This document shows positions 662-26,472 of a DNA stretch of 34,436 nt, one piece after another (positions within the stretch are counted from its first letter, which is position 1; the number at the start of each line of letters is the position of its first letter). Position numbers and translations under genes: made by a program. This stretch comes from an uncultured Oscillospiraceae bacterium (GTDB taxonomy: Bacteria; Bacillota; Clostridia; Oscillospirales; Oscillospiraceae), in the NCBI GenBank assembly GCA_947624585.1, contig CANQKZ010000014.1, positions 1-34,436 on the forward strand. Reading direction: 5' to 3'. Below the pieces are notes generated by a model. It was not told where the DNA came from. It was given only the letters and a program-made list of their open reading frames with translations, and searched no databases.

Positions 662-1098
662 GCTCCGGGGCCGCGTGGCCCTTGATCGGTTGCCGTCCGA
701 ACGGACGGGGGGGCCTTCTTTTCTCTCTTTTGTTCCGTGGGCCTTTTGCCCACTGCACAAAAGAGAGAAAAGAAGCAAAAGAGAGAAAAGGCGGTTTTGG
801 GGCTGGCGGTGGATTTTGGCCCGGCGCTTCTAACGCGGGTCGGCTTCCGCGTCCCGGGTCGGTACGTCTGGGTGGAACCATAGCCGCGCGGGCCGAAGAC
901 TTAATTGGTTGGAGCATCAGCTTCGCTTGGCCGCTTACGCTGGCGGTGGCCGGTAGGTGGGCGGCTCTGTTTTGGGCCGCGCTTTGTGGGCGGGGGTTGT
1001 GGGGCCCGTTTTTTTGTGTGTGTCGTTTGGGGTGGTACGTCGCACTGTTAAAAATGGTTTTTCAAAATATCTTTGCCGTTGGCAAATTCATTTTGAAA
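662..1098 (+). repeat. 430-bp structured dispersed repeat, copy 1
   Basis: It shares order and sequence with 25060-25479 and with the inverted 26041-26472. Shared blocks are a GGGCCG/GGCC start, the CCGTCCGAACGGACGG hairpin, a long pyrimidine/purine hairpin (arms 715-733 and 757-775, inner stem 737-742/748-753), a near-invariant block around 869-940 (ACCATAGCCGCGCGGGCCGA, then GACTTAATTGG), GCACTGTTAAAAATGG, and a terminal hairpin (1060-1077/1081-1098). The longer stem is perfectly paired in each copy although the arm sequences differ, so pairing seems conserved. Open frames inside it are not conserved between copies. It may be a structured RNA or a non-autonomous element. I do not recognise the family. 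Confidence 0.85.
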
Positions 1099-1130
1099 GA
1101 ACACTTTGGTTCTTTGTGGTTTCTGGGTGT

Positions 1131-1159
1131 ATTATAACATAAATTTGATTTTGTGTCAA
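1131..1159 (-). promoter_or_regulatory. Consensus sigma-A promoter reading into repeat copy 1 antisense
   Basis: On the minus strand, TTGACA (1154-1159), a 17-bp spacer and TATAAT (1131-1136) match consensus in all 12 positions. Transcription would start near 1124 and run antisense through the repeat toward the HtrA-like gene at 540. Confidence 0.7.
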
Positions 1160-1210
1160 GTGCTTTTTTGAGTAATTCTAATTATCTTAAGGCTGTGTGG
1201 GGGCGAAAAT

Positions 1211-1246
1211 AAACGCGGGAGGGGTGGAGCCCTCCCGCGTTTTTCA
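1211..1246. terminator. Strong 13-bp hairpin terminator with no gene upstream
   Basis: Arms 1211-1223 and 1230-1242 pair perfectly (AAACGCGGGAGGG / CCCTCCCGCGTTT) around a 6-nt loop, with T-rich sequence on either side, so it could work both ways. No coding region feeds it on the plus strand. It may mark an untranslated transcript or a lost gene. Confidence 0.6.
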
Positions 1247-1302
1247 ATTCCGCTTTATGTTCCCGGTCAACGGCGCTAACGGCCCGTTGCGGCGATTTGT
1301 TC

Positions 1303-1471
1303 ATACTGATATTCAATTAAAATCAGACACCCAGACACCGAGCACCGGGAATTTTTCGTACCAGACGAGAAACGCGGCGCAGGGAATACTTTGTGTATTT
1401 TCAAGCCGCGTGACGAAGTATGGCGCGAAAAAGGCCGGCGCGAATGTCTGATTTTGATTGAATATTAGTAT
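1303..1471 (+). mobile_element. Palindromic MITE-like element, copy R1
   Basis: It starts ATACTGATATTCAATTAAAA and ends with the inverse TTTTGATTGAATATTAGTAT. The interior is nearly self-complementary, with a centre GGAATACTTTGTGTATTTTC. It is 8 bp longer than the 161-bp copies because CAGACACC is duplicated near the left end. The outer arms AAAATCAGACA/TGTCTGATTTT pair perfectly. It has no coding capacity. From 1472 to 1628 there is no convincing gene, only an 8-bp hairpin (GTTGTACG/CGTACAAC, about 1530-1556). Confidence 0.8.
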
Positions 1472-1628
1472 CAGATGTTCCTTAAAGGATTAATGCCGTG
1501 GATCATGAAATTTACCTTCGAGCACGACCGTTGTACGGAAATCCAATCGTACAACTTATTTGAAATGTACTGAGCCAGCCGCGCGGCTCCTGGCGGTCGA
1601 TGGGAAAGGGGCCGCCGCGAACGCACGT

Positions 1629-2606
1629 TTACCCGATCATGGGCAGTATGAACTGGAGGCCGCAGAAGGCGGCGTAGATGGCCAGGAGCGTGACGCCCTG
1701 CCAGCGGGAGAGCTTGCCTTTAATGAGGGCCGGGACGGTGAGCAGGAGCATGACCGTGAACATCACGGGGATGTCCATGACCAGGGAGGCGTTGTGTCCC
1801 AAAATCTGGACGCCCTCGGGGACCTGGAAGGGGTTCACGGTGATGGCCATGCCGGAGACCAGCACCAAATTGAAGAGATTGGCGCCGATGACGTTGCCCA
1901 GGGACAGCGCCCCGTGGCCCTTGGCGAGAGACGTGATGGCGGTGACAAGCTCGGGAAGGGAGGTGCCCAGGGCCACGAAGGTCAGGGCGATGACCGTCTC
2001 TGGGACGCCCAGGGCCCGGGCGATGTAGGTGCCGTTGTCCACCAGCAGATTTGCGCCCACGGCGATGAGCGCCGCGCCCACCACCAAAAGCACCAGATTT
2101 ATGACCAGGGAGCGCTCCTTCTCCTCGCCCTCGTTCTCAGCCGGGGGGTTGGGGGAACCCTTCATCTGGAGGACGGTGATCACCATGTAGACCACGAAGC
2201 CCGCCAGAAGGATGATGCCGATGGTCCGGGAGAAGAACCCGGTGGTGTAGGCCACGCCCGCGTACAGCGCGGCGGCCAGGAAGAAGCACAGCACCGGCGT
2301 CCGAAGGGACTTCCGGTCCACCCGGCCCGGCTTCACGGCCACGGTGATGGCGGCGATCAGGGAGGTGTTGCAGATGACGGAGCCGATGGCGTTGCCGTAG
2401 GCGATGGACCCGCTTCCCTGGAGGGCGGCGGTGGTGGACACCATCACCTCCGGGAGGGTGGTGCCGATGGACACCACCGTGGCCCCGATGAGCAGCTCGG
2501 GCAGATGGAATTTCCGGGCGATGCCGGTGGCGCCCTCCACGAACCAGTCTCCGCCCTTGATGAGGAACACAAGGCCCACGGCGAAAAGAAACACTGCTTT
2601 GACCAT
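1629..2606 (-). CDS. CaCA-family Na+/Ca2+ (cation/proton) antiporter
   Basis: A 325-residue membrane protein with the two inverted alpha-repeats of the CaCA superfamily. The first has GTTLPEVMVSTTAAL followed by YGNAIGS, about residues 48-78. The second has GTSLPELVTAITSLA followed by LGNVIGAN, about 210-240. The G-[ST]-[ST]-[LF]-PE cores carry the ion-binding Glu residues. About ten membrane segments are visible, split by a charged loop near 155-170 (ENEGEEKERS). Length and layout fit the bacterial YrbG type, which exchanges Ca2+ or a related cation across the cytoplasmic membrane. The start is ATG at 2606, with AGGAG 12 nt upstream, a slightly long gap. It has its own promoter (2768-2796) and a 155-nt leader, and it diverges from the DUF308 gene. 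Ion specificity cannot be read from sequence. Confidence 0.93.
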   Translation of the reverse strand: MVKAVFLFAVGLVFLIKGGDWFVEGATGIARKFHLPELLIGATVVSIGTTLPEVMVSTTAALQGSGSIAYGNAIGSVICNTSLIAAITVAVKPGRVDRKSLRTPVLCFFLAAALYAGVAYTTGFFSRTIGIILLAGFVVYMVITVLQMKGSPNPPAENEGEEKERSLVINLVLLVVGAALIAVGANLLVDNGTYIARALGVPETVIALTFVALGTSLPELVTAITSLAKGHGALSLGNVIGANLFNLVLVSGMAITVNPFQVPEGVQILGHNASLVMDIPVMFTVMLLLTVPALIKGKLSRWQGVTLLAIYAAFCGLQFILPMIG

Positions 2607-2761
2607 GATTTGAACTCACTCCTGTGTAAAAAATGATATGGAACGCTTTCACTCTTTCCCGCCGTCCCTTATGCAGTCGGCGGGGTCGTATATGTATTCC
2701 GGCTGTCCAATAGTATCCTCCCCCACTGTATGTTTTTTCCGGGATGGAAATACATTGCAAC
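2607..2761 (-). promoter_or_regulatory. Structured 155-nt 5' leader of the cation antiporter; possible ion-sensing element
   Basis: The distance from predicted transcript start (about 2761) to the start codon is riboswitch-sized. A stem pairs TGTATT...CCGG near the 5' end with CCGGAATACA further on, with a 6-nt bulge, and encloses a G-rich loop (GTGGGGGAGGATAC). A second stem is CCGCCG/CGGCGG. I could not match it to yybP-ykoY or another known class: the typical yybP-ykoY core is absent. A regulatory role is inferred from position and structure only. Confidence 0.4.
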
Positions 2762-2767
2762 GTGATA

Positions 2768-2796
2768 ATAATACATCACCCGCATCCGCTTGTCAA
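2768..2796 (-). promoter_or_regulatory. Promoter of the cation antiporter
   Basis: TTGACA (2791-2796), 17-bp spacer, TATTAT (2768-2773) on the minus strand, back to back with the promoter for the DUF308 gene. Confidence 0.75.
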
Positions 2797-2810
2797 GCCG
2801 CGAAAGGGAC

Positions 2811-2839
2811 TTGAAAAGCGGATGAAAACGGTTTATGAT
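2811..2839 (+). promoter_or_regulatory. Promoter of the DUF308 gene
   Basis: TTGAAA (2811-2816), 17-bp spacer, TATGAT (2834-2839), 43 bp before the start codon. Confidence 0.7.
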
Positions 2840-2881
2840 AGGAGTGGAAAACGGCTGTAAAAGCCTTTGGGAGGTAATCGC

Positions 2882-3436
2882 ATGGATAAATTCAAAAAAA
2901 TATTGGGCAAGCTGGTCCTCTGCGCCTGCGAGGTGGCGGTCGGTGTGGTGCTTCTGACAAACCCGGAGGGGTTCACGAAGCTCACCGTCACGGCTTTGGG
3001 CATCCTCTTCTGCGTGCTGGGGGCGCTTTCGGCCATACGCTATTTCAGCGAGGACCCGGAGGAGGCGGCGCTGAGCCAGGAGCTGACGCGCGGCCTGATT
3101 GCGCTGTCCCTGGGCATCTTCCTGGTGTATAAGTCCGACTGGATCGTTCGCTCCTTCATGCCCATCACCGTCTTCTACGGCATCGCGGCCCTGCTCACCG
3201 GCATCATGAAGCTCCAGTGGACGGTGGACATGATCCGCCTCCACCGGGGTATGTGGCAGACCACCGGCGTGGCCGCCGTCCTGTCCATAGCCATCGCCAT
3301 AGTCGTCTTCGTCAGCCCCTTCAGGGTCCGCGACACCCTCTGGACCTTCACCGCCATCGCCCTCATCATCACCGGCGTAGTGGACGGCGTCTCGGCCCTG
3401 CTGAGCCAGCGGGAGCCCAGGTACACAATAGAATAA
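2882..3436 (+). CDS. DUF308 (HdeD-like) membrane protein
   Basis: A 184-residue protein of three paired hydrophobic hairpins, about six membrane segments. It has the short repeated helical units typical of DUF308/HdeD proteins: VLLTNPEGF and ITVFYGIAALLTGIMKL patterns, then IALIITGVVDGVSALL near the end. ATG at 2882 is preferred over the upstream in-frame TTG because GGGAGG lies 7-8 nt before it. HdeD is linked to acid resistance in enterobacteria, but the role in Firmicutes is unknown. It has its own promoter and a terminator at 3443-3477, so it is probably transcribed alone. Confidence 0.85.
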   Translation: MDKFKKILGKLVLCACEVAVGVVLLTNPEGFTKLTVTALGILFCVLGALSAIRYFSEDPEEAALSQELTRGLIALSLGIFLVYKSDWIVRSFMPITVFYGIAALLTGIMKLQWTVDMIRLHRGMWQTTGVAAVLSIAIAIVVFVSPFRVRDTLWTFTAIALIITGVVDGVSALLSQREPRYTIE

Positions 3437-3442
3437 TCACAA

Positions 3443-3477
3443 ATTCCCCGCCCCTTTTTTACCGAGGAGCGGGGAAT
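3443..3477. terminator. Hairpin terminator between convergent genes
   Basis: ATTCCCCGC (3443-3451) pairs with GCGGGGAAT (3469-3477). It lies between the 3' ends of the DUF308 gene and the SLH gene. The T-run is in the loop rather than after the stem, so strength is uncertain. Confidence 0.5.
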
Positions 3478-3551
3478 ATTCTGCCCGGAGGGGATGCGGA
3501 TGTCCTGACCGGCGGCCCTATGTACCCCGCGGCGGTATGCCGCGGGGCACG

Positions 3552-4802
3552 TCATCCGACAGTGATCTCATGGACCGCCGTAAGCTCGGCGATGGCGCCT
3601 TTGGGGTCGTCCTCCGGGGTCACATCCACGAAGGGTGCCGGGATCCCCGGGCCGGGACAGCCGTCCCGCCCCAGGAGCGCGGCGAAGAACTCCGCCGCCC
3701 GGGACCGGGATACCGTGTCGGACTCCGGGACGGAGGCGGGGCACAGGTCCAGAAGCCCATCCAGGCGCTCCGCCACCTTTTGAAGCTCGGCGGAGGTCAC
3801 GGCCCTGTCCGGGCGGAAGGTCCCGTCCCCGACGCCCACCATGACGCCCAGAGAGCTCAGCGCCGACACGCTGGGGGCATACCAGGCGCCCTCCGGCACA
3901 TCGGAGAACGGGGCGGCCTCGGGCGCCTTTCCCGCCTCGATCCCCAGGACCCGCGCCGCCACCGCCGCCAGCTCCGCCCGGGTCATGGCGTCCCGGGGCC
4001 GAAAACGGCCCTCCCCGCCGCCTTGGAAGAGCGGCAGATGGACCTCCGTCCGGGGCTGAGGCTCCGGATCCGGTTCTGGCTGTGGTTCCGGCTCCGGCTG
4101 CGGCTCCGGCTCCGGTTGTGGCTCCGGCTCCGGTTGTGGCTCCGGCTCCGGCTGCGGTTCTGGTTCTGGCTGCGGTTCCGGTTGCGGTTGTGGCTCCGGT
4201 TCCGGTTCTGGCTCCGGCTCCGGCTGCGGTTCCGGTTGTGGTTGAGGTTCCGGTTCCGGCTGCGGTTCCGGTTCCGGTTGCGGTTGAGGTTCCGGTTCCG
4301 GCTGTGGCTCCGGTTCCGGCTGTGGTTTCGGTTCCGGCTCGGGCGGCGGGAGGATCGTGAGGCGGGCCGTGCCGGTCCCGGTGAAGGTGGAGTAGTAAAA
4401 GCTGTAGTCCACCTCATAATCCAGCGTATACTCCCCCGGTTCCGTGAACTCCGGCGGGGCCTCCGCCGTCAGCTCCCCCGGCGCGACGCCGCAGCGGACG
4501 GCGGCGGTCACCTCGGGGTCGGAGTTGTCGAAAAAGGCAAACCCGTGGGCCTCGCCGTCATAGGGGACCTCCCCGCCGGTGAACCCGGCGTCGGCGGCGT
4601 AGTAGTCGGCCAGCTCCAGGCCGCAGTCAAGGCACCTCTCGGCCTCCTTGATGCGCCTCATCTCCGGCTCGTATTCCAAGATATATTCGATCCTTCTGTG
4701 GACACAGTCCGCCGCGCCGGACCCCATATCAGAGGGCACGGCGGCCGCCATGGCGGCGCAGGCTGTCACCGCGAGAACGCGGCGGATCCATCTCTTGCGC
4801 AT
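3552..4802 (-). CDS. Secreted SLH-domain protein with long Glu-Pro-Gln-Pro linker
   Basis: ATG at 4802 is chosen over the longer frame because GGAGGTG lies 8 nt upstream and the residues that follow form a signal peptide ([20 protein letters not shown]). The 416-residue product then has a Cys-containing segment, an Ig-like part with VPYDGEAH (about 79-86) and [12 protein letters not shown], a linker of about 100 residues made almost only of Pro, Glu and Gln (about 152-255), and a C-terminal SLH region. Three SLH-like units are seen, around [26 protein letters not shown] and [14 protein letters not shown]. Only the first keeps the TRAE motif. SLH domains bind pyruvylated secondary wall polymer, so the protein probably sits on the cell surface. 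The GT4-CsaB fusion at 19639 could make that ligand. The function of the N-terminal part is unknown. Confidence 0.88.
4075..4340 (-). repeat. In-frame hexanucleotide-type repeat coding the Pro/Glu/Gln linker
   Basis: Degenerate tandem units based on GGCTCCGGTTGTGGTTCC (plus strand) encode [12 protein letters not shown]. Because units are in multiples of 3 or 6 bases, copy-number change would lengthen or shorten the linker without a frameshift. Confidence 0.85.
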
Positions 4803-4905
4803 ATCATACACCTCCGGTCTCGGAGAGTGCGGGCGGGAGGACATCCACAGTCCAATCCTATGCGCCGCCCCCTCGTTTGGTTCCCGGAAAAATCCCATTT
4901 TCCCC

Positions 4906-4934
4906 TTGACAAATCGGCCGGGGGATTGTACAAT
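4906..4934 (+). promoter_or_regulatory. Promoter of rubrerythrin
   Basis: TTGACA (4906-4911), 17-bp spacer, TACAAT (4929-4934). Confidence 0.75.
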
Positions 4935-4942
4935 ACAAACAA

Positions 4943-4965
4943 GAATAATTCTCATTAAGAGAATA
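4943..4965. promoter_or_regulatory. Candidate Fur/PerR-type operator at the rubrerythrin transcription start
   Basis: AATAATTCTCATT resembles half of a Fur-family box and continues into an inverted repeat TTCTC-ATTAA-GAGAA. It covers the predicted start of transcription, where a repressor would block it. Rubrerythrins are often under PerR or Fur control. The match is suggestive only. Confidence 0.33.
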
Positions 4966-4999
4966 AGGTCATTTTAAATTTGAGGAAGGAGAAACGAAC

Positions 5000-5536
5000 A
5001 TGAGCAAATACGCAGGAACCCAGACCGAGAAGAATCTCCAGGCCGCCTTCGCCGGAGAGTCCCAGGCCCGCAACAAATACACCTACTTCGCCTCCGTGGC
5101 CAAGAAGGAGGGCTACGAGCAGATCTCCGCGCTGTTTCTGAAGACGGCGGACAATGAGAAGGAGCACGCCAAGCTTTGGTTCAAGGAGCTGGAGGGCATC
5201 GGAAACACCGCCCAGAACCTTCAGGAGGCCGCCAACGGCGAGAACTACGAGTGGACCGATATGTACGCGGGCTTTGCCAGGACCGCCGAGGAGGAGGGCT
5301 TCCCGGAGCTGGCCGCCCGCTTCCGCCTGGTGGCCGAGATCGAGCGCCATCACGAGGAGCGCTACCGCGCCCTCCTGAAGAACGTGGAGACCGCCGCCGT
5401 CTTCGAGAAGAGCGAGGTCAAGGTCTGGGAGTGCCGCAACTGCGGCCACATCTGCGTCGGCGCCAAGGCCCCCGACGTCTGCCCCACCTGCAACCACCCC
5501 AGAAGCTTCTTCGAGGTCCACGCGGAGAACTATTGA
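5000..5536 (+). CDS. rbr: Rubrerythrin
   Basis: A 178-residue cytoplasmic peroxide-reducing diiron protein. Residues 1-140 form the ferritin-like four-helix domain, with iron ligands in [14 protein letters not shown], in [13 protein letters not shown], in [12 protein letters not shown] and in [11 protein letters not shown]. Residues 143-178 are the rubredoxin-like domain with CRNCGH and CPTCNH motifs for a single Fe(Cys)4 centre. It reduces H2O2 to water using electrons from rubredoxin or NADH-linked partners in anaerobes. ATG at 5000 follows AAGGAG. It has its own promoter and a possible metal/peroxide operator just upstream, and it is followed by the separate rplJ promoter. Confidence 0.97.
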
Positions 5537-5598
5537 TCCGCGCAAGGCCCGCCGGAGCAAAAGGAGCAAAAAATACGGAACAAATTCAATTTTTCCCC

Positions 5599-5627
5599 TT
5601 GACAAGATGTCCGCGCCGTGATATGAT
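5599..5627 (+). promoter_or_regulatory. Promoter of rplJ-rplL
   Basis: TTGACA (5599-5604), 17-bp spacer, TATGAT (5622-5627). It sits directly before the L10 leader. Confidence 0.8.
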
Positions 5628-5633
5628 GTCACA

Positions 5634-5756
5634 GCGTTCCAAAGACAGCAGGTGGCGAGGGTGCGTATGACGTACTGTGAGCCGTAAATCCTGCCGAGGG
5701 CGGCAAATATGATTTGCTGATTCTATGCCCTGACGCTTTGCGCGTCGGGGCATTTT
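5634..5756 (+). promoter_or_regulatory. Ribosomal protein L10 leader with attenuator
   Basis: The leader carries the AAAGACAGCAGG...AAATCCTGCCGAGG pattern typical of Firmicute L10 leaders, with GCAGG (5648-5652) pairing CCTGC (5690-5694). The L10-L12 complex binds this RNA to limit its own synthesis. A terminator follows: ATGCCCTGACGC (5725-5736) pairs GCGTCGGGGCAT (5742-5753), then TTT. This suggests control by attenuation. Confidence 0.8.
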
Positions 5757-5794
5757 CTGTGGACGCCATCAAACCTACGGAGGTGAAAACAAAA

Positions 5795-6325
5795 ATGCCC
5801 AATGCAAAGGTCCTTAGCGAGAAGCAGGCGGTCGTTGCCGAGCTGAAGGAGAAGCTCAAGGGTGCCGCCGCCGGTGTGCTGGTGGATTACTCCGGTATCA
5901 CAGTGGCTGACGACACCGCCCTCCGCCGCAGGATGCGCGAAGAGAAGGTGGACTACTCCGTCGTCAAGAACACCCTGGTCCGCTTCGCCATCGACGACGC
6001 CGGGTACGGCGAGCTGGACTCCCTGCTCCACGGCACCACGTCCCTGGCCATCTCCCACGAGGACGCCCTGGCCCCCGCCAGAGTCGTCGCGGAGTTCGCC
6101 GACAAGCTCCAGAACTGCTTTGAGATCAAGGGCGGATTCATGGACGGGAAGGTCATTTCCGTCGACGAGATCAAGGCCCTCGCCAAGATTCCCCCGCTGC
6201 CCATCCTGCGCGCGCAGGTCCTCGGCACCATGCTGGCCCCCATCTCGAGCCTTGCTTGCGTCCTGAAGGCCATCGCCGAGAAGCAGGGCGCTCCCGCCGA
6301 GCCGGAAGCGGCCCCCGCCGAGTAA
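5795..6325 (+). CDS. rplJ: 50S ribosomal protein L10
   Basis: A 176-residue L10, the base of the ribosomal stalk that holds L7/L12 dimers. Recognisable parts are EKQAVVAELKEKLK, the DYSGITVADDTALRRRMRE stretch, YSVVKNTLVRFA and the C-terminal helix that recruits L12. The tail is Ala/Pro/Glu-rich (APAEPEAAPAE), a little longer than many. ATG at 5795 follows GGAGGTGA. An upstream in-frame start falls inside the terminator of the L10 leader and was discarded. It is co-transcribed with rplL 60 bp downstream. The usual upstream partners rplK-rplA are 23 kb away on the other strand. Confidence 0.97.
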   Translation: MPNAKVLSEKQAVVAELKEKLKGAAAGVLVDYSGITVADDTALRRRMREEKVDYSVVKNTLVRFAIDDAGYGELDSLLHGTTSLAISHEDALAPARVVAEFADKLQNCFEIKGGFMDGKVISVDEIKALAKIPPLPILRAQVLGTMLAPISSLACVLKAIAEKQGAPAEPEAAPAE

Positions 6326-6385
6326 GTCCCGGACTTACAAAAACTTTTACTGACTTGAACAAAATACTTATAGGAGGATAATAAA

Positions 6386-6763
6386 ATGGCCAGTGAAAAG
6401 ATCAACGCCCTGATCGAAGAGGTCAAGGCTCTTACCGTTCTCGAGCTCTCCGAGCTCGTCCATGCCCTTGAGGAGGAGTTCGGCGTCTCCGCAGCCGCCA
6501 TGGCCGCTCCCGCCGCCGGCGCCGCCGCCGCTCCCGCCGTCGAGGAGAAGACCGAGTTTGACGTGGTCCTGACCGGCTTCGACGCCGCTTCCAAGATCAA
6601 GGTCATCAAGGCCGTCCGTGAGATCACCAACCAGGGCCTCGCCGAGGCCAAGGCCACCGTCGAGGGCGCTCCCAAGACCATCAAGGAAGCCGTCTCCAAG
6701 GACGAGGCCGAGGAGCTCAAGAAGAAGCTCGAGGACGCCGGCGGAAAGGTCGAACTCAAGTAA
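6386..6763 (+). CDS. rplL: 50S ribosomal protein L7/L12
   Basis: A 125-residue L7/L12. The N-terminal dimerisation part ([20 protein letters not shown]) is followed by an Ala/Pro hinge (about 36-52) and a globular domain with [20 protein letters not shown] and [20 protein letters not shown], which contacts elongation factors on the ribosome. Start ATG at 6386 follows AGGAGGATAATAAA. A terminator lies 74 bp downstream. rpoB, the usual next gene, is not here. Confidence 0.98.
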
Positions 6764-6836
6764 TTTTCGCTCCCCAGACCCCAAAAGCCCGCCGAAAGGC
6801 GGCATAACCGGGAGATTTGCGATCTCCGAAAAATCC

Positions 6837-6868
6837 GGCATAGCCGCGTGCTGCGGCTATGCCGTTTT
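6837..6868 (+). terminator. Rho-independent terminator of rplJ-rplL
   Basis: GGCATAGCCGC (6837-6847) pairs perfectly with GCGGCTATGCC (6853-6863), followed by GTTTTT. Two smaller hairpins (CCGCC-GAAA-GGCGG and GGAGAT-TTGCG-ATCTCC) lie just upstream. Confidence 0.85.
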
Positions 6869-6905
6869 TGTCTTTCGGAACGGCAAAAAAGCGGCCGCAA
6901 GGATA

Positions 6906-6934
6906 TTGACACGGCGTCAGAACAGTGTTACAAT
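6906..6934 (+). promoter_or_regulatory. Consensus promoter whose gene appears lost or displaced by a MITE
   Basis: TTGACA (6906-6911), 17-bp spacer, TACAAT (6929-6934). About 40 bp on there is a GGGAGG ribosome-binding site (6973-6978), but the next base block is the end of element R2 at 6983. Only a 14-codon frame (6939-6983) follows. Confidence 0.7.
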
Positions 6935-6959
6935 AGATATGCGGACACAACGTCAGAAC
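6908..6959. promoter_or_regulatory. Direct-repeat operator candidate flanking the -10
   Basis: GACACGGCGTCAGAAC (6908-6923) and GACACAACGTCAGAAC (6944-6959) are 16-mers with two mismatches, 36 bp apart. One overlaps the -35 and spacer, the other the start of transcription. Each holds a GAC...GTC dyad, as bound by dimeric repressors such as TetR-type proteins. No regulator gene is adjacent. Confidence 0.5.
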
Positions 6960-6982
6960 GTATTCGCAGGCCGGGAGGCTTA

Positions 6983-7143
6983 ATACTAATATCCGATTGA
7001 AAGCAGACACCGAGCGGCGAGGATTTTTCGCGTCAGACGAGGAAGGCGGCGCAGGGAATACTTTGTGTATTTCCAAGCCGAGTGACGAAGCCGGACGTGA
7101 AAAAGACCGCCGCGAATGTCTTATTTTGATTGAATATTAGTAT
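6983..7143 (+). mobile_element. Palindromic MITE-like element, copy R2
   Basis: 161 bp from ATACTAATATCCGATTG to TTTTGATTGAATATTAGTAT. The interior is fold-back, with CGGCGAGGATTTTTCGCGTC against GACGTGAAAAAGACCGCCGC-like sequence and a centre GGAATACTTTGTGTATTTCC. It lies between an orphan ribosome-binding site and the GH2 gene. Confidence 0.82.
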
Positions 7144-7310
7144 TACTTAAGCGACGGGCATTCCCATTCCGCGCCGCCCCTCCTCTATGTCCATCGGGTA
7201 GTTGTCATAGGGCGGGACTCCGGGTCCGGTACTCCGGGAACCTGTCGGACGGGTCCCTCTTCCCGAAGAAGGACGCGGTATACTCCTTCGTCCCAATTAT
7301 CCTTCGGTCA
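7144..7310 (-). pseudogene. Possible decayed gene remnant (unassigned)
   Basis: On the minus strand one frame reads TKEYTASFFGKRDPSDRFPEY, then shifts to a second frame that reads PGVPPYDNYPMDIEEGRRGMG and ends at TAA by the MITE. The composition looks protein-like but there is no start, no ribosome-binding site and no family match. It may be the end of a frameshifted gene or chance. Confidence 0.2.
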
Positions 7311-7339
7311 TTGATTTTCCCGCCGATTTGCTGTATACT
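7311..7339 (+). promoter_or_regulatory. Promoter of the GH2 gene
   Basis: TTGATT (7311-7316), 17-bp spacer, TATACT (7334-7339), 31 bp before the ATG. Confidence 0.65.
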
Positions 7340-7370
7340 GGAACCATCAAGACAGAACGGAGGCGGCAAA

Positions 7371-9029: not shown

Positions 9030-9189
9030 TACTAATATTCAATTAAAACGAGACACCGAGCGGCGAGGATTTTTTGCGTCAGACGGGGAAGAACGCGCAG
9101 GGAATACTGTATGTATTTCCAAGCGGTCTGACGAAGTATGACGCAAAAAAGACCGCCGCAAATGTCTTATTTTGATTGATTATTAGTAT
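9029..9189 (+). mobile_element. Palindromic MITE-like element, copy R3, abutting the GH2 stop codon
   Basis: 161 bp from ATACTAATATTCAATTAAAA to ATTGATTATTAGTAT, with the same internal fold-back and centre as R2. Its first A is the last base of the GH2 stop TGA. Confidence 0.82.
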
Positions 9190-9227
9190 GAACTGTCTTT
9201 TAGTCATATCCCGCCGGAAATTATAAA

Positions 9228-9287
9228 GAACCTCCGAACAGATCGAATCGTCAGGACCGGCGCGGCGATTTGTTCGGAGGTTCCCTT
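9228..9287. terminator. Hairpin terminator after GH2/R3
   Basis: GAACCTCCGAACA (9228-9240) pairs with TGTTCGGAGGTTC (9271-9283) across a 30-nt loop, followed by CCTTTT. The reverse side also has a T-rich tail. Confidence 0.6.
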
Positions 9288-9293
9288 TTCACA

Positions 9294-9325: not shown

Positions 9326-9330
9326 TGTGT

Positions 9331-10293: not shown

Positions 10294-10303
10294 AGGGACC
10301 ACC

Positions 10304-19642: not shown

Positions 19643-22149
19643 AGATCCTGATGGCCACCATGGGCCTGGACATCGGCGGGGCGGAGACGCACATCGTGGA
19701 GCTGACGCGGGAGCTTGTGCGGCAGGGCCATCAGGTGGTGGTCGTCTCCAACGGCGGCGTCTACGTGCCGGAGCTGGAGCGCAGCGGGGTCAAACACATC
19801 AAAGCCCCCCTCCACAGACGGAATCCCTTCACCATGCTGAAGGGACTGCTGGTCCTGCGCTCCGCCATCCGGGCGGAGAGGCCGGACGTGGTCCACGCCC
19901 ACGCCAGGATCCCGGCGTTTCTGTGCGGGATCCTGCGGAAATTCATGGACTTCCCCCTGGTCACCACCGCCCACTGGGTGTTCGACCCGGGGTTCCTGCT
20001 GAAATACCTCACCAACTGGGGCGAGCGGACCATCGCCGTCTCCGACGACATCGTGGAGTACCTCATCAAAAACTACGGGCTTGACCGGGACAAAATCACC
20101 GTCACCATCAACGGCATCGACACGGACAAGTTCTCCCCGGCCATCTCCGGGGTGGCGGTGCGGCAGGAGTTCGGCATCCCCCTGGACGCGCCGGTGGTGT
20201 CCCACGTGAGCCGTCTCGACGAGAGCCGGGCGCTGGCGGCGGATATGCTGCTGATGATCGCCCCCACCCTGGCCCAGCGGGTGCCGAAGGTGCGCATCCT
20301 CATCGCCGGGGCCGGCGGGCGGTACGAGGAGATGGTCCACCGGGCCGAGGAGATCAACCTGAAGATCGGCTACAAATGCATCGTCATGGCCGGGTCCAGG
20401 ACGGACATCAACCAGATCTGCGCCGCCGGAAACGTCTTCGTGGGCGTGTCCCGGGCGGCGTTGGAGGCCATGGCCTCGGCGCGGCCCGTGGTGGTGGCCG
20501 GAAACGAGGGGTACATGGGCCTCTTTGACGAGGACAAGCTTCAGGAGGGCATCGACGGCAACTTCTGCTGCCGGGGCCTGCCCCCCATGACGAAGCAGGC
20601 GCTCCTGGACGACGTGACCACGGCGCTGACCCTGGACGGGGTGGACTACGACAGGCTCTCCGCCTACGGACGCCAGGTGGTCGGCGAGCACTACAGCGTC
20701 AAACGCATGGCCGCCGACGCCCTGGAGGTGTACGGTAAGGTCCGCCGCTCCCGGCGGGTGGCCCTGAGCGGGTACTACGGCTTCAACAACTACGGGGACG
20801 AGGCCATTTTGGAGTCCCTGTGCCGGGCCATCCACCGGATCGACCCGGATACCGAGATCACAGTCCTTTCCAACAATCCCCAGTTCACCGAGTCGGGCCA
20901 CGAGTGCCGGGCGGCGAGGAGGTTCTCGCCCCTGGCGGTGTGGAAGACGCTGCGGCGGTGCGAGCTTCTCATCTCCGGCGGCGGGAGCCTGATGCAGGAC
21001 AACACCTCCACCAGGTCCCTGATCTACTACCTCTCGGTGATCCGTCTTGCCCACAGGATGGGGAAGAAGACCATGATCTACGCCAACGGCATCGGGCCGG
21101 TGACGAAACCGGCCAACAGGCGGCGGGTGCGGAAGACCGTGGAGCTGGTGGACAGCGTGGTGCTCCGGGACCCGGATTCCGTGGCGGAGCTGCGGGATAT
21201 GGGGGTCACAAGGCCGGACCTCATCGAGAGCGCCGACCCGGTGTACACCATGCCGGCGCCCAGCCACGCCGCCGCCCAGAGGGAGCTTTCCATCATCGGG
21301 GTGGAGGGCCCCTTCATCACCGTGGCGGTGCGGCCCGTGAAGGACGCGCCGGACACCGTACAGAAATTCGCCGCCCTGTGCGACGGCATCGCGGACCGGT
21401 ACGGGCTGAAGATCGTGCTGATCCCCATGCAGCCCCGGGTGGACGAGCCGGTGTGCCGGGAGCTTCAGGAGGCTATGCGCAACCGGGCCACGGTTCTTTC
21501 GGGGGATTACAGGCCCCTGGACGTGATGGGCATCATCGGAGAGGGACGCATCGCCCTTGCCATGCGGCTCCACGCCCTGATCTTCGCCGCCTGCACCGCC
21601 ACGCCCATCCTGGGCTTCGACTACGACCCCAAGGTGGGGAGCTGTCTCGCCATGCTGCGGATGCCGGCGGTGGAGGACATCTCCAAAATGGACGTGGACA
21701 CGGTGCTGGAGGCGGTGGACGTGATGCTCCGCCACCGGCAGGAGATGTCCGCCGGACTCCGGGAGAACGCGGACAGGATGCGGGCTCTCGCCGCCCGGGC
21801 AAACGTGGAGCTGGAGCGCCTTATGACGGGCTCCGCGCCCGGGGAGGACGCGGATAGCGAAGGTTTTGAGACATTTAACGAGGCGGAAACCGCCTTTGAA
21901 ACCGGGGAGACCGCCGGAACAGAGCCTGAGACGCAGGAGGACGGGGCGCGGATCGCCGGGACAACCCCCGCGCCGGTGGAATCCTGGCCGGAGGCGGACG
22001 CGCTGACCATCCCCAGGCCGGAGAAGGCCCCGGAGGACGCCCCGGAGGCCACGCCGGAGACGCCGGAGGACGCCGAGGCTTCCCCGGAGGACACGGAAGA
22101 GACAGAATCCGCCGGAGACGGCGCGGAAGATACGAAAGGAAAGGAATAA
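19639..22149 (+). CDS. csaB: Fused GT4 glycosyltransferase and CsaB-type polysaccharide pyruvyl transferase
   Basis: An 836-residue two-enzyme fusion. Residues 1-365 form a GT4 domain (GLDIGGAETHIVELTREL, NGIDTDKFSP, RAALEAMASARPVVVAGNEG). Residues 372-730 are CsaB (PF04230): LSGYYGFNNYGDEAILESL, SGGGSLMQDNTSTRSLIYY, YANGIGP and a closing AMRLHALIFA. CsaB adds a pyruvate ketal from phosphoenolpyruvate to a wall polymer, the mark that SLH domains bind. Residues 730-836 are an acidic Glu/Pro/Ala/Thr tail, probably disordered. ATG at 19639 overlaps the DUF4330 stop. It is the sixth gene of the operon, and the M16C gene follows after 5 bp. Confidence 0.93.
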   Translation: MKILMATMGLDIGGAETHIVELTRELVRQGHQVVVVSNGGVYVPELERSGVKHIKAPLHRRNPFTMLKGLLVLRSAIRAERPDVVHAHARIPAFLCGILRKFMDFPLVTTAHWVFDPGFLLKYLTNWGERTIAVSDDIVEYLIKNYGLDRDKITVTINGIDTDKFSPAISGVAVRQEFGIPLDAPVVSHVSRLDESRALAADMLLMIAPTLAQRVPKVRILIAGAGGRYEEMVHRAEEINLKIGYKCIVMAGSRTDINQICAAGNVFVGVSRAALEAMASARPVVVAGNEGYMGLFDEDKLQEGIDGNFCCRGLPPMTKQALLDDVTTALTLDGVDYDRLSAYGRQVVGEHYSVKRMAADALEVYGKVRRSRRVALSGYYGFNNYGDEAILESLCRAIHRIDPDTEITVLSNNPQFTESGHECRAARRFSPLAVWKTLRRCELLISGGGSLMQDNTSTRSLIYYLSVIRLAHRMGKKTMIYANGIGPVTKPANRRRVRKTVELVDSVVLRDPDSVAELRDMGVTRPDLIESADPVYTMPAPSHAAAQRELSIIGVEGPFITVAVRPVKDAPDTVQKFAALCDGIADRYGLKIVLIPMQPRVDEPVCRELQEAMRNRATVLSGDYRPLDVMGIIGEGRIALAMRLHALIFAACTATPILGFDYDPKVGSCLAMLRMPAVEDISKMDVDTVLEAVDVMLRHRQEMSAGLRENADRMRALAARANVELERLMTGSAPGEDADSEGFETFNEAETAFETGETAGTEPETQEDGARIAGTTPAPVESWPEADALTIPRPEKAPEDAPEATPETPEDAEASPEDTEETESAGDGAEDTKGKE

Positions 22150-22154
22150 ACAGC

Positions 22155-25055
22155 ATGGAATTTCAAAAGGACACCACCATCCACGGCTTCCGGGTGCGGT
22201 ACTCGGAGCCTGTTCCCGAGCTGAAGGCCACGCTCCACCGGATGGAGTACGTCAAAAACGGCGCCGATCTTGTGTGGCTGGAGCGGCCCGACGACAACAA
22301 GACCTTCTCCATCGCCTTCAAGACCATCCCCTCGGACCACACGGGGGTTTTCCACATCCTGGAGCACTCCGTTCTGTGCGGGAGCCACAAGTACCCGGTG
22401 CGGGAGCCCTTTGTGGAGCTGATCAAGAGCTCCTTACAGACGTTCCTCAACGCTATGACCTTTCCGGACAAGACCATGTACCCCCTGTCCACCAGGAACG
22501 ACCGGGATTTCCTGAACCTCATCGACGTATACATGGACGCGGTGTTCCATCCGCTGTCCATGGAGCGGGACGTGGGATTTTTGCAGGAGGGCTGGCACTA
22601 TGAGCTTGACAGCCCCGTGGGAGAGCTGACGCGCAACGGCGTGGTGTTCAACGAGATGAAGGGCGCCTTCGTGGACCCGGACGAGGTGCTGAGCTTCGAG
22701 ATGGGCTGCGCCCTGTTCCCGGACAACTGCTACGGGTATGAGTCCGGCGGACACCCGGAGCACATCCCGGAGCTGACCTATGAAAGCTATAAGGAGAACC
22801 ACCGCAGGTATTACAGCGCGTCCAATTCCTATATCTTCCTGGACGGGGACATGGACATCGACGCGGTGCTCAAAAAATTGGACTCCTTCCTTTGCGAATA
22901 CGACCGCATCGACGTGGACGCGGACATCCCCATGCAGAAGCCGGTCCACCCGGAGGAGATCACGGCGCGGTACGAGATCGGCCCGGACGAGGACGGCGCC
23001 GACAAGGTCATCGTGGGCGAGGGCTGGATGGCCAGCCGCTTCGACGAGCCGGAGCGGGTGATGGCCTGCTCGGTGCTGACCCGCGCACTGTGCGGCACCA
23101 ACGAATCGCCGGTGAAAAAGGCCCTTCTAGAGAAGGGGCTCGCCCAGGACGTGGAGATCCACTCCTACGACGGCATCCAGCAGAACTTCCTCTTCATGTC
23201 CGCCAGGAACACCAGCTTGGAGAAGAAGGACGAGCTGGTAAAGACCGTGTACGATGTGCTCCGGGAGCAGGCCAAGGGGCTTGACCACGCGGAGCTTCAC
23301 GCCATTTTGAATCAGGTGGAATTTTCCAACCGGGAGAAGGATTTCGGCAGGATGCCGAGGGGCCTTGTGTTCGCCATGGTGAGTCTGGAGTCCTGGCTCT
23401 ACGGCGGCGACCCGGCCCAGAACCTCAGCTCCGACGCGGTGTTCGCGTCCCTGCGCCGCAAGGTGGACGAGGGTTGGTTCGAAAAGCTCCTGGAGGAGGT
23501 ATTTTTGAACAATCCCCACACCGCCCGTGTGGTGCTGGTGCCCTGCAACACGTTGGGCGAGGAGCACGCGGCCCACACAAAGGCGGAGCTGGCCGCCATC
23601 CGCGCCGGGTGGTCCGAGGCGGAGACAAAGGCGATCATCGAGCGGTTCAACGCGCTGCGTCAGTTCCAGAACGCCGCCGACACGCCGGAGGCTCTTGCCA
23701 CCCTGCCCCAGCTGAAACTCACGGACATCCCGGAGAAGATGGCGCCGCTGCCCTACAGCGTGACGAAATTCCACGGGGCGGACCTGCTCCGGCAGGATCT
23801 GGAGACCGGTGGGATCACGTATCTGGACCTCTACTTTGACGCGGACGACCTGACGGAGGAGGAGCTGCTGGCTCTGCCCATGGCCAGCTCCCTCTTGGGG
23901 AAGCTGAACACGAAGCGGCGGCCCGCGCTGGAGATGACCACCCTCATCCGGGAGAAGCTGGGAAAATTTGGCGTCGCCGCCATGATGATCGGCCGCAAGA
24001 GCGACCGGGCGGCGCTGCCCAAGCTCCAGGTGAGTCTGGCGCTCCTGCCGGAGCGGAAGGATGAGGCGGTGGAGATCTTGCGGGAGGTCCTGCTGGAGAC
24101 GGACTTCGGCGACACCGCCGCCGTGTACAACATCCTCCGTCAGCACAGGATCATGACCGAGCAGACGGCCCAGAACTCCGGGAACGCCTTCGCCTTCGTG
24201 CGGGCCAGCGCCGGGACGTGTCCGGCGGGCGCCGTGGCGGACATCCTGCGGGGCGTGGAACAGCTGCGGTATTTGCAGAATGCGGAGCGGTCCTTCGAGG
24301 AGAAGGCGGCCGGGCTGACGGCGAGGTACGAAGCGCTTTTGAAAAAGCTCCTGGTCCGGTCCAGGCTGACCCTCTCCGTCACCGGCGAGCTGGACGAAAA
24401 TTGGCTTGAGTGCGTGCTCCGGGTGTTCCCGGAGGGGGCGCGGGGCGCGCGGAGAGAGTACAGCGCCGTTTCCCGCCCCGGCGAGGGCTTCTCCATCCCG
24501 GCGGGCATCGGATTCGCCGCCAAGGCCATGATGCTGGAGGACGCCGGGGCGAAATACGACGGCTCCATGGCCGTGGCGGACAAGCTTTTGACCATGGACT
24601 ACCTGTGGAACAGCGTCCGCGTCAAGGGCGGGGCCTACGGGGTCAACATGGGGACCAATTCCGACGGCACCGTGTCCATGACCTCCTTCCGGGACCCCCA
24701 CTGCGGGAACACCCTGGACGTGTTCGACGCCTGCGGCCAGGTCCTGCGGGAGTTCGCCGACTCCGGCGAGTCGCTGGACAAGTTCATCATCTCCACCGTG
24801 GGTTCACTGGAGCCCATCACCACGCCGCGCACCGAGCAGGAGAAGGCCGCCCGGATGTTCTTCTCCGGCACCACCGCCGACGACCTGCAGCAGGTCCGCT
24901 CCCAGGTCCTGCACACCACCCACGAAAAGCTGAGGGAATACGCCGATGTGCTCGGCAAGCTCGCGGGGGAGGCTCACACCTGCGTCATCGCGGGGAAGCC
25001 GATCCTCGACGGGTGCGGGGAGAAAATCGAGACGGTGGAGAACCTGGTATCTTGA
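22155..25055 (+). CDS. M16C metallopeptidase (insulinase/presequence-protease type)
   Basis: A 966-residue M16C peptidase with two halves. The inverted zinc motif HxxEH is His67-Ile-Leu-Glu70-His71 (HTGVFHILEHSVLCGS). A downstream Glu in GVVFNEMKGAF is the third ligand. The C-terminal half carries the substrate Arg/Tyr region (VKGGAYGVNM). The family degrades short unstructured peptides inside a closed chamber. No signal peptide is seen, so it is cytoplasmic. ATG at 22155 follows AAAGGAA. It is 5 bp from the CsaB fusion and likely co-transcribed, though a direct role in the glycan pathway is doubtful. Repeat copy 2 starts 5 bp after its stop. Confidence 0.94.
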   Translation: MEFQKDTTIHGFRVRYSEPVPELKATLHRMEYVKNGADLVWLERPDDNKTFSIAFKTIPSDHTGVFHILEHSVLCGSHKYPVREPFVELIKSSLQTFLNAMTFPDKTMYPLSTRNDRDFLNLIDVYMDAVFHPLSMERDVGFLQEGWHYELDSPVGELTRNGVVFNEMKGAFVDPDEVLSFEMGCALFPDNCYGYESGGHPEHIPELTYESYKENHRRYYSASNSYIFLDGDMDIDAVLKKLDSFLCEYDRIDVDADIPMQKPVHPEEITARYEIGPDEDGADKVIVGEGWMASRFDEPERVMACSVLTRALCGTNESPVKKALLEKGLAQDVEIHSYDGIQQNFLFMSARNTSLEKKDELVKTVYDVLREQAKGLDHAELHAILNQVEFSNREKDFGRMPRGLVFAMVSLESWLYGGDPAQNLSSDAVFASLRRKVDEGWFEKLLEEVFLNNPHTARVVLVPCNTLGEEHAAHTKAELAAIRAGWSEAETKAIIERFNALRQFQNAADTPEALATLPQLKLTDIPEKMAPLPYSVTKFHGADLLRQDLETGGITYLDLYFDADDLTEEELLALPMASSLLGKLNTKRRPALEMTTLIREKLGKFGVAAMMIGRKSDRAALPKLQVSLALLPERKDEAVEILREVLLETDFGDTAAVYNILRQHRIMTEQTAQNSGNAFAFVRASAGTCPAGAVADILRGVEQLRYLQNAERSFEEKAAGLTARYEALLKKLLVRSRLTLSVTGELDENWLECVLRVFPEGARGARREYSAVSRPGEGFSIPAGIGFAAKAMMLEDAGAKYDGSMAVADKLLTMDYLWNSVRVKGGAYGVNMGTNSDGTVSMTSFRDPHCGNTLDVFDACGQVLREFADSGESLDKFIISTVGSLEPITTPRTEQEKAARMFFSGTTADDLQQVRSQVLHTTHEKLREYADVLGKLAGEAHTCVIAGKPILDGCGEKIETVENLVS

Positions 25056-25059
25056 GAAA

Positions 25060-25479
25060 GCTCGGGCCGCTTTGGCCTTGATTGGAGGCCGTCCGAACGG
25101 ACGGGGGATAATTTACTTTCTTCTCTTTTGTGCTGACAAAAGAGAAGAAAGTAACAAAGAAGAGAAAATCGGTTTTTGGGGCCGGCGGTGACTTTTGGCT
25201 TGGCGCTTCGTAACGCGGGTCGGCTTCCGCGGTAGCGTGTCGGTGGGTCTGGGTGGAACCATAGCCGCGCGGGCCGAAGACTTAATTGGTTTCTGCATCA
25301 GCTTCGCTTGGCCGCTTACGTTGGCGGTTGTTGATAGGTGGGTGGCTCTGTTTGGGGCCGCGCTGCGATGGAGGTCGTTGTGGGGCCCGTTCTGGGGCGT
25401 GTCTGTTGTCTGGGGCGGTGCGTCGCACTGTTAAAAATGGTTTTTCAAAATATCTTTCCTTCGGAAATTCATTTTGAAA
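25060..25479 (+). repeat. 430-bp structured dispersed repeat, copy 2
   Basis: Same block order as copy 1. The pyrimidine/purine hairpin is 25113-25131 (TTACTTTCTTCTCTTTTGT) with 25136-25154. Four positions of each arm differ from copy 1, and all four are compensated on the other arm. The block ACCATAGCCGCGCGGGCCGA followed by AGACTTAATTGGTT is identical to copy 1. It follows the M16C stop codon by 5 bp in the same orientation, so it would form the 3' end of that transcript. Confidence 0.85.
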
Positions 25480-25551
25480 ATTATTTTATTGTGCTCTGTC
25501 CTCCGTCCTCCAAAATAATACCCGCCGTCCGTAAAGACAGCGGGAAAACAT

Positions 25552-25580
25552 ATTGACTTTTCGGGTCCGATGGCGTATAA
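25552..25580 (+). promoter_or_regulatory. Promoter of a small RNA in the repeat-flanked island
   Basis: TTGACT (25552-25557), 17-bp spacer, TATAAT (25575-25580). Transcription should start near 25587. No coding gene follows on this strand. Confidence 0.75.
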
Positions 25581-25586
25581 TAAAAG

Positions 25587-25705
25587 TGTGGAAGCTCGCA
25601 GAACGCCAGGCACCACGAGTACACGATCATCAATGTGAGCCGGGGCCGCAACCCCAAACCCACAGTGAGCCGTCTGTTCGTAGCAGACGGCTCACTGTTT
25701 CTTTA
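25587..25705 (+). ncRNA. Candidate about 115-nt small RNA convergent with a small hydrophobic peptide gene
   Basis: It has a consensus promoter 7 bp upstream and a perfect 14-bp terminator hairpin at its end. A GGGG-CCGCAA-CCCC hairpin lies in the middle. No ribosome-binding site plus frame of note is present on this strand. Its 3' part is antisense to the end of the peptide frame at 25692-25796. A function as antitoxin RNA is inferred from this layout. Confidence 0.5.
25663..25705. terminator. 14-bp perfect hairpin terminator shared by the convergent transcripts
   Basis: CAGTGAGCCGTCTG (25663-25676) pairs CAGACGGCTCACTG (25684-25697) across a 7-nt loop. TTTCTTTAT follows on the plus strand. 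The minus strand has no T-run after the stem, so it probably serves mainly the small RNA. Confidence 0.75.
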
Positions 25706-25796
25706 TCGTTATGTACAGCGCATACACGGACACGATCAGCCCCAGTATACTGCATATGCTGCCAATCACGGAAAGAACAGTGACTATGTATCTCAC
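25692..25796 (-). CDS. Small hydrophobic peptide, candidate type I toxin-like
   Basis: From GTG at 25796 it gives 34 residues, RYIVTVLSVIGSICSILGLI then VSVYALYITIKKQ: one membrane helix with a Lys-Lys-Gln end, the pattern of type I toxins and small holin-like peptides. A near-perfect GGGGAGGTGAG site overlaps that GTG. The codon at ideal distance from the site is ATA (25785-25787), which would give a 31-residue form. Either the start is unusual or an ATG has been lost and the gene is silenced. A consensus promoter lies about 200 bp upstream. The longer open frame in the same phase is ignored. No family is recognised with certainty. Confidence 0.42.
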   Translation of the reverse strand: MRYIVTVLSVIGSICSILGLIVSVYALYITIKKQ

Positions 25797-25910
25797 CTCC
25801 CCGGGCGTATTTCCCGCGAAAGCAAAACACTCGCCTCCTCGTCGTCGCGGAACCCGCTTTACCTCGCCCTCCCTCCGGTCGGGCTCAGGCGCTGGGTTCG
25901 CTCCTCCTCT

Positions 25911-25937
25911 CCCCACAAAATCTCCAATTTTGCGGGG
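25911..25937 (-). promoter_or_regulatory. 11-bp hairpin in the 5' UTR of the small peptide
   Basis: On the minus strand CCCCGCAAAAT pairs ATTTTGTGGGG (one G-T pair) around a 5-nt loop. It lies in the 200-nt leader between the promoter and the peptide, in keeping with a structured toxin mRNA. Confidence 0.45.
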
Positions 25938-26000
25938 ACCCCGTGAGGGATGTCAGGCACTGTCAGCGTACCGCAAATTGCGTCGGACTTCCACAAACTT

Positions 26001-26029
26001 ATTATACATCCGTGCCACTTTCCTGTCAA
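26001..26029 (-). promoter_or_regulatory. Consensus promoter of the small-peptide transcript
   Basis: TTGACA (26024-26029), 17-bp spacer, TATAAT (26001-26006) on the minus strand, identical to consensus. It sits 12 bp from the 3' end of repeat copy 3 and reads away from it. Confidence 0.8.
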
Positions 26030-26040
26030 TTCCGAATTTT

Positions 26041-26472
26041 TTTCAAAATGAATTTCCAACGGAAAGATATTTTGAAAACCATTTTTATCAGTGCGACGCA
26101 CCACCCCAGACAACACACACAAAAACACGGGCCCCACAACCCCCGCCCACAAAGCGCGGCCCCAAACAGAGCCACCCAGCTACCGACCCCCACCAACGTA
26201 AGCGGCCAAGCGAAGCTGATGCTCCAACCAATTAAGTCTTCGCCCCGCGCGGATATGGTTCCTCCCAGACGTATCGACAACAACCGCGTGAGCCGACCCG
26301 AGATACACGGCAGGAGCCTTCGTCTCCCACCGACCCCCCCACCCGCCTTTTCTCTCTTTTGCTTCTTTTCTCTCTTTTGTGCAGTGGGACCCCCCTCCCA
26401 CGGAACAAAAGAGAGAAAAGAAGATCCCCCCGTCCCTTCGGACGGCCCCCGATAAAAGCCCTTCGGCCAGAA
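26041..26472 (-). repeat. 430-bp structured dispersed repeat, copy 3 (inverted)
   Basis: On the minus strand it has the same blocks. The long hairpin (26362-26380 with 26405-26423) has the same arms as copy 1, but its inner stem is GTGGGA/TCCCAC instead of GTGGGC/GCCCAC, a compensated base-pair change. The terminal hairpin is TTTCC-GTT-GGAAA. Its 5' end lies 25 bp after the tmcAL stop, in the same orientation, as copy 2 follows the M16C gene. Confidence 0.85.

Follow-up and report, generated by a model that had tools for sequence, protein, structure and literature searches.

Inverted pairs of hairpin-rich repeat arms, often around small low-G+C genes, in the genome of an uncultured Oscillospiraceae bacterium

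Introduction

A hairpin-rich repeat of about 0.4 kb occurs three times in a 34,436-nucleotide stretch of DNA from an uncultured Oscillospiraceae bacterium (GenBank assembly GCA_947624585.1, contig CANQKZ010000014.1, positions 1 to 34,436; this whole stretch is referred to below as the window), and the question raised by this locus is what the repeat does and whether it acts as RNA or as DNA. A preliminary description, made from the letters of the window, had proposed a possible new structured RNA, with two copies placed like elements of a 3' untranslated region. The three copies were found where that description had placed them, at approximately 655-1098 (+), 25060-25480 (+) and 26040-26472 (-), and the second and third form one unit: a pair of hairpin-rich arms, each about 0.4 kb long and inverted with respect to the other, whose tips face across a centre. 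Such units are dispersed through the genome and often enclose small genes of low G+C content. The repeats are read here as the arms of dispersed cassette units in which DNA structure is under selection, a reading to which a probability of roughly 0.6 was assigned.

Inverted-pair units

Copies of the arm were counted in the genome using a core motif of 19 bases. Allowing for as many as 2 mismatches, this motif was found at 89 sites (46 forward, 43 reverse) and its reversed control at 0, which excludes a chance origin. A profile search of the 413 kb around these sites returned 98 copies or pieces, among which one element, split over two overlapping stretches, was counted twice; following two additions and one removal, 99 entries were used in later analyses. 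The arm family in this genome comprises about 90-100 copies. BLAST against the same genome, with 40 of 125 candidates scored, listed at least 83 stretches with a match, many of which were reverse readings of the palindromic stem.

Neighbouring copies no more than 2.5 kb apart were arranged '+-' in 22 cases, '-+' in 3, '++' in 4 and '--' in 3 (22 vs 3, p = 1.6e-4), so that the arms face each other by their 3' tips. The same orientation was seen in 8/8 close pairs of the other species tallied (genomes G032, G005, G020 and G006). The distance enclosed between paired arms ranged from 83 to 1914 bp. When the outer 5' flanks were compared with each other, no match was obtained at E 1e-6 over 50 bp.

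The unit in the window occupies 25060-26472, between a gene ending at 25055 (+), which we take to encode an M16C peptidase, and a gene at 26497-27684 (-), presumably TmcAL-like. Its left arm (copy 2, 25060-25480, +) carries stem type 2 and its right arm (copy 3, 26040-26472, -) stem type 1; the centre (25481-26039) has a G+C content of 53%, against 67-68% outside. This centre is 91% identical to the one at positions 4765-5327 of locus L060, which belongs to a unit with the opposite combination of left and right stem types. The arms of the two units are patchworks, as fits recombination among copies.

Cargo

Centres of at least 300 bp were present in 15 of the 22 pairs. Their G+C content was 35-53% (mean 48.4%) against 63.3% outside, and was the lower of the two in 15/15 (p = 6e-5). 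The pairs often enclose one or two small, foreign-looking genes which differ from site to site; the genes outside the units we take to be housekeeping genes. Cargo proteins were taken from plain open reading frames, as a gene caller based on host codon use had missed several cargo genes. The 20 proteins scanned, among them one from G006 and one encoded next to an unpaired arm where a contig ends, comprised 6 GNAT acetyltransferases, 2 methyltransferases and one each of a metallo-beta-lactamase fold, a HIT protein, a histidine phosphatase and a flavin reductase, plus 2 with matches under the cut-off and 6 without any match. A short box common to some of the cargo edges holds the ribosome-binding region or the stop codon; it was detected by pattern in 8 of 75 arms and by eye in more.

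In the window unit, the centre contains a minus-strand open reading frame for a short hydrophobic peptide, which had no match in Pfam, with promoter-like sites at both edges (by eye). The region 25540-26040, with a terminator-like hairpin near 25670 in addition to the peptide frame and the promoter-like edge sites, is by eye reminiscent of a type I toxin-antitoxin system. Related centres were noted in L060 and L066 and, by peptide, in L112. Centres consisting of short repeats around TTAATTTCAAA, in both orientations and with no clear gene, were seen by eye in L062 (4620-5735) and L101 (3825-4067 and 7189-7447).

Presence and absence at two sites, with probable exchange of cargo at one

LeuD was found in 29 of the 34 genomes of the genus and the leuD-leuB distance was measured in 28 (G027, with a split match, was excluded). 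No insert was present in 22 of the 28 (gap 3-139 bp). Units are carried by G000 and G006; at a contig end, G032 has a hairpin chain; and in G033, G015 and G022 (L234, L239 and L241) there are 310-458 bp not recognisable by eye as the arm family. Alignment of the G000 and G006 units gave 81% over the left arm and flank, 84% at the right edge and 73% over the right arm and flank. Their cargo differs: one encodes a membrane-like protein of 81 residues, the other a protein of 114 residues that matches a pyrophosphatase below threshold. As the arms stand at the same place in both genomes, replacement of the cargo is the simplest reading; two independent insertions could in principle also have produced the difference.

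The M16C site was compared partly by eye. No unit precedes the next convergent gene in loci L143 and L149. In L147, a gene that seems to be the same one follows a unit of about 700 bp, and L146 has a short version. In L145 and L148 other genes follow and no unit was seen; L144 ends too early. In the window the unit is followed by other genes. The units are intergenic, in many copies and at variable loci, the variability having been examined at these two sites. Gene order after the M16C gene also differs between the window (22155-28989) and its close relatives L143-L149, and the acetate kinase-TmcAL block of L145 has the opposite orientation to that of the window, whose unit lies at this breakpoint.

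Transposition as an alternative

A non-autonomous transposon of the REPIN or MITE type, with a RAYT or some other single-strand transposase mobilising inverted hairpin doublets in trans, would account for the intergenic inverted doublets, the hairpins, the high copy number and the strand-biased folding described below. This explanation is considered doubtful. The Y1 transposase model (PF01797) gave no match in G005 or G006 and a partial match in G000, all three of which carry units; no target duplication was found; and no transposase was noticed beside 21 unpaired or same-direction arms, which were inspected by eye and not scanned. Assignment to the RAYT-associated REPINs is not supported, as the RAYT model (PF01797) that marks this class was unmatched in G005 and G006 and matched partially in G000. 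In their general form, as inverted doublets of hairpin-forming repeats between genes, the units resemble the REPINs and BIMEs described in PMC3116915. The REPs of that account measure 20-40 bp and are tied to RAYTs, whereas here the arms are of 0.4 kb, gene cargo is present and no matching RAYT pattern was obtained (PMC3116915).

Parts of the arms

Each arm runs from variable outer hairpins through a pyrimidine:purine long stem, a second purine arm and a G/T-rich core, ending in most full copies in a tip hairpin beside the cargo. Copy 1 (approximately 655-1098, +) is a lone arm of stem type 1 and its 5' end faces an opposed gene (1-540, -). Its first, variable hairpin lies at 693-708 (+), its long stem with the inner stem at 715-775 (+; 19-nt arms 715-733 and 757-775), its second purine arm, a possible third strand, at 776-790 (+) and its tip hairpin at 1057-1098 (+). 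The equivalent parts of copy 2, all on the + strand, are the first hairpin (25089-25104), the long stem (25113-25154; arms 25113-25131 and 25136-25154), the second purine arm (25156-25168), which is an exact mirror image of 13 bases of the stem purine arm, and the tip hairpin at the left edge of the cargo (25439-25480). In copy 3, on the - strand, the stem purine arm, linker and second purine arm occupy 26348-26379 and the tip hairpin, at the right edge of the cargo, 26040-26080. A tandem chain of about 10 small hairpins, mostly with stem sequences of their own, precedes the long stem at positions 1-275 of L225, in G032.

Conserved pairing and the choice between RNA and DNA

The conserved structure of the repeats was confirmed. 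Between copies 1 and 2 the 19-nt arms differ at four positions, every one of them compensated; changes in the inner stem are likewise compensated, and the tip hairpin stays paired through compensated changes of its own, all as first described. Among the 52 copies with letters at the four compensated long-stem pairs, the counts were C-G 46 and T-A 6, T-A 46 and A-T 6, T-A 46 and C-G 6, and C-G 46 and T-A 6. With 46:6 at each, these changes amount to one linked block, separating stem type 1 from stem type 2, and not to four independent events. The first hairpin could be placed in 87 of the 99 copies and had a perfect stem of at least 6 bp in 71 of them, against 2.9% of shuffles; these 71 stems comprise 43 distinct sequences. 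When covariation was compared with a tree-based null (67 copies), one pair, in the tip, lay above the maximum of 12 null sets. The level expected about once per alignment was exceeded by 12 pairs, of which 3 belong to the inner stem or tip with Watson-Crick pairing kept, and 9, mostly around columns 135-146, are linked or non-pairing variants. Selection on pairing, and not on sequence or protein, as proposed in the preliminary description, was borne out: the stems co-vary, the lengths of the 67 full copies are evenly distributed modulo 3, and no reading frame is conserved (at most 27 of the 67 had any one frame open for 100 codons).

The same observations could be explained by a structured RNA, with each arm transcribed as a 3' untranslated region or leader, folding into a chain of hairpins and spreading with the genes. 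The compensated pairs of the long stem, inner stem and tip fit this, as does the first hairpin, whose shape is kept across its 43 stem sequences. G-T cells also outnumber A-C cells, as would fit an RNA, by 55 to 24 in the long stem, inner stem and tip (distinct columns 30 vs 15) and by 85 to 45 (distinct columns 38 vs 23) once the first hairpin (30 vs 21) is added. One strand therefore seems to be preferred for folding, with which RNA and single-stranded DNA agree alike.

Several results speak against an RNA. Folding of the 270-bp core, assessed in 24 of 57 cores, was not stronger than that of shuffles on either strand (mean z -0.53 and -0.63). One arm of each pair is antisense to the other. 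An Rfam search at the repeats returned no family at the gathering score; sub-threshold matches, obtained for copy 1 and one unit of another species, fell mostly on the perfect stem and were to models of microRNAs (best E 7e-6). The maximum of the tree-based null was exceeded by the tip pair only. Of the 53 copies with a called gene on the 5' side, 34 had that gene in sense and 19 had it opposed (p = 0.053). Copies 2 and 3 do follow stop codons in sense, as had been remarked, but the general bias is not significant and copy 1 faces an opposed gene. A purine third strand, moreover, is considered unfavourable in RNA and suits DNA better. Because the arms are mutually antisense within a unit, the sense bias is not significant and the purine third strand suits DNA, DNA is preferred, and we hold with moderate confidence that the arms act as DNA rather than RNA. 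A structured RNA is accordingly judged unlikely. Of the original proposal, the conserved and co-varying structure stands and an RNA function was not confirmed; a role in the 3' untranslated region is not supported, in view of the antisense arms, the non-significant orientation bias, the core, which was folded no more strongly than shuffles, and the second purine arm, which fits a DNA triplex.

Triplex design of the stem and second purine arm

A linker separates the purine arm of the long stem from the second purine arm, which tends to be its mirror image. In stem type 1 the second arm resembles a direct repeat, but the arm sequence there is itself mirror-symmetric; among stems of type 2, as in several other species, the second arm is the mirror image rather than a direct repeat. 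Across a filtered set of 24 distinct arm pairs sharing a common 5-nt-linker axis, the mirror match averaged 12.2 of 13, against 8.5 for permuted pairs and 9.7 for the direct match in the same register. Under equal search freedom, which is the fairer version of the test, the mirror match was 9.68 of 11, against 8.87 permuted and 9.14 direct; the mirror was better in 149 comparisons, the direct match in 69, and 91 were tied, these counts coming from overlapping seeds and not being independent. The support given by this version is moderate. With both strands of the palindromic stem mixed (112 asymmetric readings), means were 8.6 for mirror, 8.1 for direct and 7.2 for mismatched pairs.

An intrastrand purine-motif triplex requires mirror symmetry in a purine arm adjacent to its own duplex, according to the account of such repeats by Holder et al. 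(2015, PMC4666352). The purine-motif class II design, with a pyrimidine stem, loop, purine stem, short linker and mirror purine stem on one strand, the third strand being antiparallel to the first purine stem, was found in the arms. From their letters, the arms probably represent intrastrand triplex repeats of a new variant that is large and carries cargo, with a triplex predicted.

The nearest known elements are the PIT, BoxC and TM_ECO repeats, which that source describes as a single strand carrying a pyrimidine stem, loop, purine stem, short linker and second purine stem (Holder et al. 2015, PMC4666352). There, TM_ECO is reported as intergenic, multicopy and at rearranged or variable loci, with inverted pairs at 5 sites in MG1655, of which 4/5 are '+-' by our own reading of its Table 1 (PMC4666352). 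The design of stem and second arm, the inverted pairs and the variable loci are common to TM_ECO and the present arms (PMC4666352). TM_ECO, as presented there, is G/C-rich, 34-37 nt long and has its paired motifs close together, whereas the stems here are A/T-rich, of 12-19 bp, and lie within 0.4-kb arms; unlike TM_ECO, many of the present pairs enclose foreign-looking genes and their arms hold other hairpins (PMC4666352). Assignment to TM_ECO proper was rejected, the consensus CCCTC.CCC / GGG.GAGGG not being found in the A/T-rich arms. The main text of PMC4666352 contains neither 'Clostridi' nor 'Firmicutes'.

Chance flanking and integron-like cassettes

Ordinary interspersed repeats which flank genes by chance and form no unit would leave lone arms and centres that are short or gene-free, both of which occur; this explanation is very improbable in the face of the orientation bias of 22 vs 3, the 15/15 low-G+C centres, the presence and absence of the unit at leuD-leuB and the 91% identical centres, with arms, at two sites. 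Integron gene cassettes consist of small foreign genes, GNATs among them, between foldable sites. Cassettes of that type, moved by an integron integrase at folded sites, would share the small, foreign-looking, GNAT-rich cargo and the folded ends of the present units, yet are scarcely credible here, since the integron integrase model TIGR02249 scored over its cut-off in 0/34 genomes, the cassettes are dispersed and not arrayed, and the sites are inverted and not direct. Weaker matches to TIGR02249, of the kind given by other tyrosine recombinases, were obtained in 33/34 genomes, and a different recombinase could still act on the units.

MICs are transposase-free genes held between inverted repeats. 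The units share this organisation. From the MICs (PMC3913671) they differ in having about 90-100 arm copies per genome, long, diverged and structured arms, cargo which differs at most sites, and no target duplication seen at outer ends whose exact positions are uncertain.

Proposed mechanism and its weighing

If the arms are cassette ends, selection would act on their DNA structure. The arms would fold when the region becomes single-stranded, during replication, repair or transcription, and, once folded, may stall or break the replication fork. Repair by recombination with other copies would then swap cargo between units, the arms they have in common providing universal homology; this would also account for the patchwork of the arms. 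Insulation of cassette and neighbouring genes is a possible role of the outer hairpins. We infer an exchange of cargo by folding and recombination. A bolder extension, put forward tentatively, is a dispersed, integrase-free system in which triplex arms would be docking sites at dozens of places, structure-induced breaks and arm homology would swap any captured gene in and out between sites and species, and the chromosome would behave like a scattered integron.

Several observations weigh against the cassette reading. Centres are in several cases short (83-174 bp) or without a clear gene, and no partner exists for 19 lone arms whose 3' side is covered for more than 2.5 kb. Different cargo at the same place is documented at one site only (leuD-leuB). 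No transposase, target duplication, RAYT or integron integrase linked to the units was found, other recombinases not having been surveyed; at the outer ends, whose exact positions are uncertain, the longest shared word averaged 6.0, against 5.7 for mismatched flanks. The G-T excess given above would suit an RNA. For the triplex in particular, the mirror set had been filtered, 44 of 53 rows being kept, with 4 dropped for scores below 9/13 and 5 for another linker. A fixed-register test, placed by purine content, reversed the result (mirror 7.4 vs direct 8.9 of 13), we think through a register rule which misplaces the axis in stem type 1. In the mixed-strand readings the mirror beat the direct match in 45/112, against 29 for the reverse. 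Mirror symmetry is also partly forced by low complexity, because the commonest arm is itself mirror-symmetric. The E. coli PIT elements, in the account cited, had no effect in vivo, and footprinting in vivo saw no triplex (PMC4666352).

Bacterial triplex repeats have been known for years without a function, and the triplex design is seen here within long inverted arms that flank genes with a foreign composition. The scattered-integron extension, if true, would give those long-unexplained repeats a role, and the units would offer a possible route of gene flow needing no recognised recombinase. Different genes at the same place in a conserved operon of two species make a direct test of triplex-driven gene capture and swapping possible.

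Distribution across genomes

Copy 1, used as a DNA query, matched 17 of 60 genomes, its own among them and all within the genus; the 26 genomes outside the genus gave 0 matches. The double purine arm was detected in 8 of the 34 genus genomes by a first pattern, in 14 by a second and in 15 by either; the reversed control of the second pattern also matches in G005, G020, G018 and G006, where the counts cannot be judged against it because the motif is mirror-symmetric. No homologue of copy 1 was found in phage and plasmid records, no arm pattern was found in viral contigs, and the exact 35-base core pattern had no match in the named genome collection. A degenerate arm pattern, applied to 295 genomes of the order, matched the genome of origin only, at just 4 sites; as the pattern is so insensitive, it says little on wider distribution. 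The literature listings searched contained nothing on cassettes of this kind. Close relatives found through the M16C gene are metagenome-assembled genomes of uncultured Oscillospiraceae named 'Lapin', from which the habitat of the genus is probably the gut of rabbits.

Additional features of the window

A second repeat family (approximately 83% identity) lies 3' of copy 1, at about 1300-1470 of the window, and 3' of another lone arm, at about 12980-13140 of L078. At 5621-5766 (+) of the window, a ribosomal protein L10 leader (RF00557) scored over its gathering score, and the genes downstream of it are presumably those for L10 and L7/L12.

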